This document shows, one piece after another, positions 31,232 through 36,501 of a stretch of DNA of 39,864 bases. Source of the DNA: a virus; IMG/VR virus record IMGVR_UViG_3300021403_000027, positions 1 to 39,864 of that record; one strand, 5' to 3'. Numbering within the stretch: the first letter of the stretch is position 1; the number at the start of each line of letters is the position of its first letter. The notes under the pieces were generated by a model. That model did not search any database and had not been told where the DNA came from. It was given only the letters and a program-made list of their open reading frames with translations. The translations under genes were made by a program, and so were the position numbers.

Positions 31232-31865
31232 TTACACCCCCAAACTTGAAATGCGTGTGCAAAGCAAATTACGGATAGCCGTATCTTGCGTTAATGCTTG
31301 AGACTGAGCGAACTTAACCGCTAAAGTCGCATTTTGTGCCAACATGCCTGAATAGTACGGATCACGATAGATCAGATTCATGCTAAACCCATCTTGATTG
31401 ATGTGCGTAATCGCTTGCTTACCCAAAATCGTGTTGTAATAGACGTCTGTAGCAACTCCAGAAGAGTTGATAGCAGCACCACGTGCCACAGGAGCTTCAG
31501 AGCTAGTAAGAATCCGTGTATTAAACACAGAACCATATTCACTCGGAGCCGCAGGGGCTGAATGCGGATAATTCCACACACTAGTAAAGCCACCTGGAGA
31601 TGTTCCAGCCATGCTGTCAAAATCTGACTGCAATTCAGTAGATGACAAGCACATATAGCAAGCCCGAATTGGTGTTGTACCGAATTTCAGGTCGCCTTCA
31701 ATGCCAGTCATAAACTTATAGGCATTGTTAGTGTCAAGTGTAGTAGCAACTAAGCTAAAATCACTTACTCCAAGCCCAGCCGGGTTATATCCGTTCGTAA
31801 AGCCACCAGCGTTTATTTGAGACGCAGCAGAGATAATATAATCTCTGAGAATTAACAACCTGTTA
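31232..31865 (-). CDS. Major capsid protein (N4 gp56-like), 3' exon
   Basis: Encodes the C-terminal two-thirds of the capsid protein, RLLILRDYIISAASQINAGG to the stop at 31232. The segment AGGFTNGYNPAGLGVSDFSL, then KFMTGIEGDLKFGTTPIRAC and SFDSMAGTSPGGFTSVWNYP, is the HK97-like core of the N4gp56 family. The open frame upstream is closed by a stop just before 31867, so the exon cannot start earlier. Joined to 32268-32602 (join 32268|31865) it gives 322 residues, within the family's 300-400. By itself it could start at a TTG at 31858 with no good ribosome-binding site. Confidence 0.82.
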
Positions 31866-32267
31866 CTTTATGACCAATAATTGACCGCGAGCAATTATTG
31901 GCGATCTACTAGTTTCCTGTAGATTCACTCCCTTTCGTTGGAGTGCTCGGACTGTCGCATACCATTTTCGTGATGCCACGAAAATGGTCCCTTTCACTCA
32001 GTCTCTCAGGCTGCATTGAAGGCATACAATTTAAGCAAAATCTTTTATTTGTTCCTATTAAGCTCATAAAGTAGCCTTCCGGAGCATCAGAAAAATTTAG
32101 ACTTTTATTACATTCTGCGCACTTCATGCTTGCCCCCTGTCGGCATATCTTTCAACTTAGCCTTCCAAGTCAATCAGAAAAGGTTTATCGAGGACTTAAC
32201 TCAATCCTCGGCTTGACGCATTGCTACGGCTAACCTTTCGGATACCCAAGCAAGTACCATTTATGCG
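31866..32267 (-). other. Group I self-splicing intron in the capsid gene
   Basis: The capsid frame stops at 32261 and resumes near 31865 after about 400 bases. On the minus strand I can pair: a P2-like hairpin 32210-32205/32194-32189; P3 CCTTTTC (32183-32177) with GAAAGGG (31995-31989); P7 GACTG (32003-31999) with CAGTC (31954-31950); P8 twelve pairs (31988-31977/31972-31961); P9 six pairs (31945-31940/31931-31926); two further hairpins (31924-31904 and a ten-pair stem 31901-31874). The P7-P3-P8-P7-P9 order is the group I core. The proposed splice sits in a ten-position P1 (32272-32263 with ATGCGTCAAG at about 32219-32210), whose only mispair is at 32268, and restores the frame; it is not a canonical U-G pair, so ends are approximate. 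P4-P6 were not resolved. Confidence 0.8.
31909..32127 (-). CDS. Intron-encoded small double-CxxC protein
   Basis: 72 residues within the intron, MKCAECNKSLNFSD, then GTNKRFCLNCMPSM: two CxxC pairs about 28 residues apart, like a small zinc ribbon. CAGGGGGC lies just before the ATG. The second half of the frame runs through P7, P8 and P9 of the RNA core, so the C-terminal residues are dictated by RNA structure and the reading frame may be partly accidental. Not a LAGLIDADG, GIY-YIG or recognisable HNH homing endonuclease; an HNH-type zinc remnant is possible. Confidence 0.45.
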   Translation of the reverse strand: MKCAECNKSLNFSDAPEGYFMSLIGTNKRFCLNCMPSMQPERLSERDHFRGITKMVCDSPSTPTKGSESTGN

Positions 32268-32602
32268 GCAAGCAAAGAGAGCATACTAAAACCCTCTTGA
32301 TCTTGTAAAATAACTTGTTCATTTATAATACAACCAGTACCGAAAAAGGCCATTTGTGCATCTATGATGTCACGTTGTGGCACTTGAGCGGGAGGGTCTA
32401 TTCCAGAATTTCCCAACTGCACAGTTGGCGGTTGTAGTGCACGTGGACGCATAAAGCGGCATGTAGTCCCACCATTGGCAGGCATGCTTACTTTATCGGC
32501 TACGGTAATGTAATTCATTGTAGGAGTAGGAACATAAAGCATTGCTGGCGCGAGTGATTGCAGGATCATCGGGCCGAGCGCGCCTGTAGTAGTAATCGAC
32601 AT
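32268..32602 (-). CDS. Major capsid protein (N4 gp56-like), 5' exon
   Basis: Encodes residues 1-111 and two bases of codon 112. SITTTGALGPMILQSLAPAM, then TVADKVSMPANGGTTCRFMR, RPRALQPPTVQLGNSGIDPP, CIINEQVILQDQEGFSMLSL is the N-terminal arm and E-loop region of the N4gp56 capsid family, where EQV.LQDQ is a fixed block. The in-frame stop after LLAA lies in the intron. Start ATG 32602 follows GGGG in a small hairpin. Confidence 0.85.
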
Positions 32603-36236: not shown

Positions 36237-36238
36237 AT

Positions 36239-36320
36239 TGCATAAGGTAGGATTTGAACCCACGGATTTTCACCTACAAACCTCATGGTTTGCTGCAATC
36301 AGCCACTCTGCCACTTATGC
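36239..36320 (-). tRNA. tRNA-like gene 2, class II shape
   Basis: Acceptor GCATAAG/CTTATGC is perfect; D arm TGGCAGAGTGGCTGATTGCA is typical of class II (Leu/Ser/Tyr) tRNAs; variable arm AGGTGAAAATCC; T arm GTGGG-TTCAAAT-CCTAC is canonical. The anticodon arm GCAAACC-ATGA-GGTTTGT is 18 bases and its inner palindrome collapses the loop, so the anticodon is unclear (Leu GAG by U33, or Ser TGA by length). It lies two bases upstream of tRNA-like gene 1 in transcription order. Confidence 0.6.
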
Positions 36321-36501
36321 ATACGTCCTGAGTTTATTTAGCCTAGGATAACTCAGGCACAACCTTGCATCTTTCTAAATAACCGTTACTAGTAGATTAG
36401 TTAGATTAGCACTGTCTAGTCGTGGCCACTGCCATTTGTACTTTACGTGACATCGTTTTAAGATTTTTATTTAAACTCGCAATCTTCAATCGAGCTAGGT
36501 T
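36321..36501. other. Short non-coding stretch between tRNA-like genes and 72-residue gene
   Basis: 181 AT-rich bases with no supported gene. With the two tRNA-like genes it makes the longest gap in the late region. I see no terminator or promoter of quality. Confidence 0.5.

Follow-up and report, generated by a model that had tools for sequence, protein, structure and literature searches.

All natural group I introns with established splicing are, as far as we are aware, considered to possess a catalytic core of their own, and a coreless group I intron served by another ribozyme has so far only been engineered. Among phages, group I introns are represented by those of T4 td and Twort orf142, and introns in capsid genes are already known from mycobacteriophage LittleE, where splicing was proven by RT-PCR, and from lactococcal phage Tuc2009 (PMC3706429). 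Small degenerate group I introns of 56–81 nt in the rDNA of Phialophora, Porpidia and Arthonia lack most of the core; they were reported with a P7 and as ribozymes acting alone, the tested case ending in U, and neither a neighbouring ribozyme nor a tag was described for them (PMC3160393). On the engineered side, spliceozymes or trans-excision-splicing ribozymes use a group I core to remove a foreign intron and to join its flanks via P1 and P10, and the segments excised in this way reach 28 nt or about 100 nt (PMC4094466). Pairs of group I introns that flank a short exon and are able to interact are known from Twort orf142 (introns 2 and 3) and from designed tandem Tetrahymena introns (PMC10136302).

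We analysed a stretch of viral DNA of 39,864 nucleotides (IMG/VR record IMGVR_UViG_3300021403_000027, positions 1 to 39,864; hereafter the window), in which the major capsid gene (31232–32602) holds, according to spliced alignment, two insertions of 33 and 348 nt. All features of this gene lie on the minus strand. With the phage introns named above, the 348-nt intron shares the P3–P8 core, a P1 with a U.G pair, P10 and a terminal G, whereas the 33-nt intron has the substrate side only and no core. Engineered spliceozymes are designed, act in trans and carry the guide in the ribozyme; in contrast, the short capsid insertions (minis) would be natural and act in cis, with the guide in the removed intron and a P2-like bridge to the core. 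The minis share with the small fungal introns P1, P10, the loss of most of the core and a pairing between intron and 3′ exon, but they come with a neighbouring ribozyme and mostly with a tag-like ending. The interacting introns of Twort and of the Tetrahymena constructs each have their own core and their interaction skips the exon, whereas the capsid system would keep it. Finally, the putative tag has the C-terminal LAA or LVA of the ssrA (tmRNA) tag -ALAA, which is likewise found on products of failed expression, but its coding sequence lies within the intron or the exon that follows, and it would be read only when splicing is absent. No natural example of a single ribozyme serving two introns like this is known to us.

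The identity of the gene as an N4-gp56 capsid gene, named by the original prediction, was borne out by TIGR04387, which scored 82.8 bits for an intronless relative (L007) and 56 bits for the C-terminal half of the window gene (cut-off 60), and by a further match to PHROG 1357 (‘major head protein’). Cultured phages showed no DNA similarity to the window. Relatives were fetched from IMG/VR via the capsid C-terminal half, yielding 210, of which 80 were kept. About 28 of them have an uninterrupted reading frame, QDQEG-VLAWVSERLAVAMRQAED-LILRDYI, with minor substitutions. The window frame reads QDQEG-FSMLSLLAA-stop, cut after LLAA exactly as noted before, and VLAWVSERLAVAMRQAED is encoded just 3′ of that stop, ahead of the group I core. 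The splice originally proposed, from 32268 to 31865, yields QDQEG-FSMLSLLANRL-LILRDY; aligned with its N4-gp56 relatives, that product has FSMLSLLANRL at the junction in place of 18 conserved residues, and after this comparison the splice was rejected.

For the exon map we used our own dynamic program for spliced protein-to-DNA alignment with a profile of 28 intronless proteins. Because its scoring slightly favours U as the last exon base and G as the last intron base, such ends are no independent test of the boundaries. Exon 1 (32291–32602, 104 codons) ends with QDQEG and a last base U. It is followed by the 33-nt mini (32258–32290) and by a 54-nt exon 2 (32204–32257), which encodes the 18 residues VLAWVSERLAVAMRQAED and is defined by the intronless relatives as well as by the spliced alignment. 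The 348-nt intron (31856–32203), supported by spliced alignment and core fold, separates exon 2 from exon 3 (31232–31855), which starts at LILRDY and includes the stop codon. Joined, the three exons encode 329 amino acids, not 322 as first proposed, and align without gaps to the relatives at both junctions; a peptide from the spliced capsid would span QDQEGVLAWVSER. In case a contig derived from cDNA existed, viral contigs were searched for exact DNA matches to the spliced junctions; there were none. By its fold and splice-site pairings, a group I intron does interrupt the major capsid gene, but the model of a single intron and its boundaries gave way to two insertions; the coreless upstream intron and the meaning of ‘LLAA’ as a likely ssrA-type tag were overlooked. 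Two further elements were noted on the minus strand of the window: a perfect long inverted repeat ahead of the capsid gene (GAGTATCATTTCGGTG..CACCGAAATGATACTC, 32820–32780), a possible terminator or attenuator, and an odd tRNA-like gene with undefined anticodon detected by ARAGORN (36238–36321).

The fold identifies the 348-nt insert as a group I intron. Its core (31950–32183), for which relatives have a homologous and covarying fold, comprises P3 (32183–32177/31995–31989, 7 pairs), P4 (32169–32166/32139–32136), P6 (32135–32132/32023–32020), P7 (32003–31999/31954–31950, 5 pairs) and a perfect P8 of 12 bp (31988–31977/31972–31961). P3, P7, P8, P9 and two more hairpins were found in the right order, in agreement with the original prediction. 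P1 is the hairpin CGAGGAU|UGAGUUAAGUCCUCG, in which CGAGGAU, the last seven bases of exon 2 (32210–32204), pairs with GUCCUCG with a U.G at the splice site, and P10 is formed by AGUUAA and UUAAUU. The guide (32189–32201) consists of the P10 strand AGUUAA (32201–32196) and the internal guide sequence (IGS) GUCCUCG (32195–32189), and the intron ends in GGTTG with a terminal G.

The Rfam search proposed at the outset gave no group I match (RF00028) in the window, neither at the gathering score nor at E ≤ 10. RF00028 does match the introns of two relatives, and we therefore take the miss in the window as limited sensitivity of the Rfam model. Because of this miss an own intron model was built from an alignment of 25 small full introns of the same gene, taken from relatives only and leaving out the window, with a hand-written P3–P8 structure including the P3/P7 pseudoknot. 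In this alignment 95.8% of the cells pair, two-sided changes occur in 24 of 30 pairs, and the covariation score is 0.637, whereas shuffles scored 0.206 and slid versions no more than 0.133. The resulting covariance model had a single match in the whole window, at 32188–32078 (E = 5e-6). The 3′ half of this match is meaningless, because P6 of the window intron is enlarged by some 100 inserted nt that include the start of a 72-aa ORF; the actual 3′ strands of P6, P3 and P7 lie downstream of it, at 32023–31950. The ORF (31909–32127) starts in the P6 loop, overlaps P3, P7, P8 and P9, encodes two CxxC pairs and had no family match at E ≤ 0.01; its ATG is preceded by GGGGG. Full capsid introns have a nearly invariant 3′ end, GTAACA(G/A)NNNG, which is absent from the minis.

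The 33-nt insert begins after U, ends with G and contains UUUAGUAU-GCUCUCUU. Its P1 (32275–32298) pairs the exon sequence AAGAGGGU (32298–32291) with the IGS GCUCUCUU (32282–32275), with a U.G at the splice site and a pair probability of about 1 for the inner seven pairs. Directly preceding the IGS, the P10 strand AGUAU (32283–32287) pairs with GUACU at the start of exon 2 (32257–32253). Judged by these pairings, the insert is a complete group I substrate, with P1 including the U.G, an adjacent P10 and a terminal G. At this length there is no room for a catalytic core, and none was found in the insert; the sole core detected in the window by our covariance model is that of the next intron. Nor does the window mini contain an endonuclease gene. 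By chemistry alone, the mini could be called a variant of group I; we consider it new on the ground that a search for the defining core showed it to be absent there. A scan of the window for further minis gave matches at the shuffled rate only, and so none is claimed outside 32290–32258.

Minis were then collected from the 80 relatives, from contigs found with a DNA pattern that is blind to downstream introns, from further relatives and from GTDB contigs. Short inserts occur at four sites, after residues 88, 91, 104 and 114. We analysed 43 distinct minis, 39 of 30–79 nt and four of 946–976 nt; three relatives with messy spliced alignments (L002, L334, L383) were left out of the statistics, and a broad DNA pattern for site-104 minis, whose matches were unspecific, was not used. 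An IGS of at least 6 pairs with an adjacent P10 of at least 4 pairs is present in 38 of the 39 short minis compared with 0.17% of shuffled inserts. At site 91, an exon change from GCTGCAT to GCTGCGT is matched by a guide change from GTGCAGC to GCGCAG (L406, L407). The four long inserts, all at site 104, have an ORF in the P1 loop and the guide 16 nt from the 3′ end; no recognisable core was found in them, and each has a full intron of 201–213 nt downstream. The ORF of the L019 insert encodes a LAGLIDADG protein (PF00961, 1.4e-11). In this insert (L019:2844–3710) and the matching inserts of L048, L075, L336 and L404 at site 104, the LAGLIDADG gene (tested in L019) follows directly after the -AA stop, and site-104 minis of 30–56 nt without a homing endonuclease gene share a nearly identical 3′ end with these inserts. 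The GTDB matches, which are spread over MAGs from several unrelated phyla, probably represent binned phage contigs. The capsid gene as a whole is an intron hot spot, with full group I introns at more than 20 sites (e.g. L005, L022, L361, L379, L407) and up to five insertions within one gene of 323 codons. Another group I core (E = 7e-24) lies on the minus strand of L170 (7977–8087), where it borders the C-terminal part of the portal gene (PHROG 156) on the upstream side; readthrough into this intron terminates in VV instead of AA.

LAA is the C-terminus of the tmRNA tag. In the window, in-frame readthrough from exon 1 into the mini yields FSMLSLLAA-stop (32261–32290, TAA at 32263–32261), an ssrA-like C-terminus. 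Among the capsid introns, in-frame readthrough ends in AA-stop in 80 of 153 cases (37/43 minis, 43/110 full introns), compared with none of 306 in the other two frames. The endings are mostly LAA, with LVA and QVA variants, in 48 different codings that use all three stop codons. Where minis at site 88 have no stop of their own, the frame runs into the next exon and meets LAA, QAA, LVA or QVA plus stop in all such carriers; at that place the motif occurs in 12 of 125 non-carriers. The ‘LLAA’ of the window is hence likely an ssrA-type tag. That common descent or codon use gave rise to the LAA endings as a by-product, without any degron function, seems unlikely. Certain codings do recur (CTGGCTGCATAA nine times, CTCGCAGCGTAA eight times), partly via related introns, but neither the diversity of codings, stop codons and variants nor the strict dependence on frame is expected of a by-product. 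Moreover, the tags lie at different places (P1 loop, P5 loop, next exon in a shifted frame), and they are usually absent where an upstream mini already stops the ribosomes: full introns have the tag in 6 of 46 cases behind a mini but in 7 of 9 without one (p = 2e-4).

Translation into group I introns disturbs their splicing, and they usually have an in-frame stop close to the 5′ splice site (PMC3073962); a tag at such a stop was not found in the open-access papers searched. Before splicing, the TAA of the mini would halt ribosomes ahead of the ribozyme, and the capsid fragment then released would end in -LLAA, which is predicted to mark it for ClpXP-type proteolysis. The readthrough bias, together with the rarity of the tag in full introns behind minis, points to a plausible role of the mini: it may halt ribosomes far ahead of the ribozyme and tag their product.

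The part of the mini downstream of its guide appears to tie it to the next intron. In the window, GCUUG.CGCAU (32263–32273) pairs with AUGCG.CAAGC in exon 2 (32221–32211) with one mispair, immediately upstream of the exon strand of the P1 of the 348-nt intron (the partner). This is the helix taken by the original prediction for a 10-position P1. The helix itself is well supported, with pair probabilities near 1 save for the mispair and the last pair, but as a splice-site P1 it was rejected: it has no U.G, one of its strands is conserved coding sequence, and it joins the 33-nt insert to exon 2, that is, it forms a bridge. An unconstrained fold of 32302–32182 gave P1 of the mini, one base, the bridge, no base and P1 of the partner, again with pair probabilities near 1.

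In relatives, the tail of the mini, from guide to 3′ splice site, varies with the site of the partner and is complementary to the exon bases that directly precede the partner's P1 strand. At this P1 boundary, 25 of 43 minis have a run of 6 or more pairs; the control values were 2.5% for tails of minis with other partners and 3.7% for shuffled tails. In most of the remaining minis the bridge is one or two bases off or has one mispair, and a weaker or displaced bridge was seen in L131, L352, L363, L335 and L342. Across six partner groups, 191 of 192 cells are paired, a count that is somewhat favourable as pairs were taken at the best-pairing register, and two-sided changes, which this procedure does not affect, occur in 12 of 43 pairs. 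Examples are GGCGAGA/TCTCGCC, GGCTAGA/TCTAGCC and GGCGAGT/ACTCGCC for partners at site 116, and GAACC/GGTTC and GATCC/GGATC for those at site 144.

The minis also have a constant companion. We compared 140 distinct complete genes: a full group I intron between residues 92 and 150 accompanies the mini in all 40 genes that have one but occurs in only 9 of the 100 that do not (Fisher p = 1e-26), and clusters at 93% identity agree. So do the minis found by the pattern blind to downstream introns, wherever the contig extends far enough, and five GTDB mini genes examined later have a partner in 5/5. Partners sit at site 96, 98, 101, 116, 120, 122 or 144, leaving an intervening exon of 24 to 168 nt. 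A core upstream as general helper was discarded, with 27 of 40 mini genes having no full intron upstream of site 88. Genes with a mini at the same site may share descent, so that these counts are not independent events; nevertheless, two-sided changes in guides as well as in bridges speak for ongoing selection.

The companion and the bridge bear directly on the possibility that the mini is an autonomous minimal self-splicing intron of the Phialophora kind, independent of the downstream ribozyme. A precedent is reported for fungal rDNA: introns of 63–75 nt there combine P1 and P10 with a short P7 and a pairing to the 3′ exon (PM), and one of 67 nt splices in vitro when given about 300 nt of exon (PMC3160393). 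The minis resemble them in P1, in P10 and in pairing with their 3′ exon. Yet an autonomous intron would need neither the partner found in every complete gene nor a bridge, and the tail of the mini tracks the position of the ribozyme and abuts the partner's P1. In minis of 30–33 nt, only 15–18 nt remain outside P1 and P10. Taken together, we regard autonomous splicing as quite improbable.

Still less credible is that the mini stays in the message and is bypassed by the ribosome as in T4 gene 60. A short insert with a stop codon and a possible hairpin with exon 2 would fit bypassing, but no in-frame matching take-off and landing codons were seen in the window, and the inserts range from 30 to 79 nt in all phases and up to 976 nt with an endonuclease gene. 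Complementarity of guide and P10, the U.G and the terminal G are a group I signature, and bypassing would require no partner ribozyme. Finally, a dead remnant in a pseudogene or in a capsid made as two pieces is likewise very improbable: TAA ATG at 32263–32258 resembles a stop and restart, but the restarted frame ends after VLAWVSERLAVAMRQAED at a TGA of the 348-nt intron and gives no second capsid piece, and two-sided changes in guides and bridges across relatives would be unexpected.

We therefore favour, with a probability of roughly 0.83, removal of the mini by the downstream ribozyme, which would excise first the mini and then itself, so that two introns are served by one ribozyme. From the exon map, the covarying guide and bridge pairings, the constant downstream core and the tag bias, all obtained by computation, we infer both the splicing of the mini and its order. 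The mini would supply the substrate side only, namely the guide to the end of exon 1 (P1), the P10 strand for the start of exon 2 and the terminal G. Its P1, the bridge, the partner's P1 and P3 with the core would follow one another in a P1–P2–core topology, in which the 3′ splice site of the mini and most of exon 2 are placed in the P2 loop and the partner's P1 is an added hairpin. The downstream core would dock the P1 of the mini, remove the 33 nt and join exons 1 and 2. Removal of the mini would take away one strand of the bridge and free the partner's own P1, after which the partner would excise itself. The excision of foreign segments by engineered group I ribozymes (PMC4094466) indicates that such chemistry is feasible.

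More generally, the minis probably form a natural class of coreless satellite introns with their own guide and a covarying P2-like tether to a downstream group I ribozyme, some of them mobile via LAGLIDADG, and with an -LAA tag that would dispose of capsid fragments made from unspliced RNA. If so, a natural coreless intron serviced by a neighbouring ribozyme would be frequent in these capsid genes and small enough to be cloned whole. It would embody the transition from self-splicing to serviced introns that accounts of spliceosome origin invoke, in that case starting from group II introns. Satellites with their own LAGLIDADG gene would be mobile introns that borrow the ribozyme of a neighbour. 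A truncated capsid product could poison capsid assembly, and the intron-encoded degron would be a bacterial counterpart to the quality control of unspliced messages.
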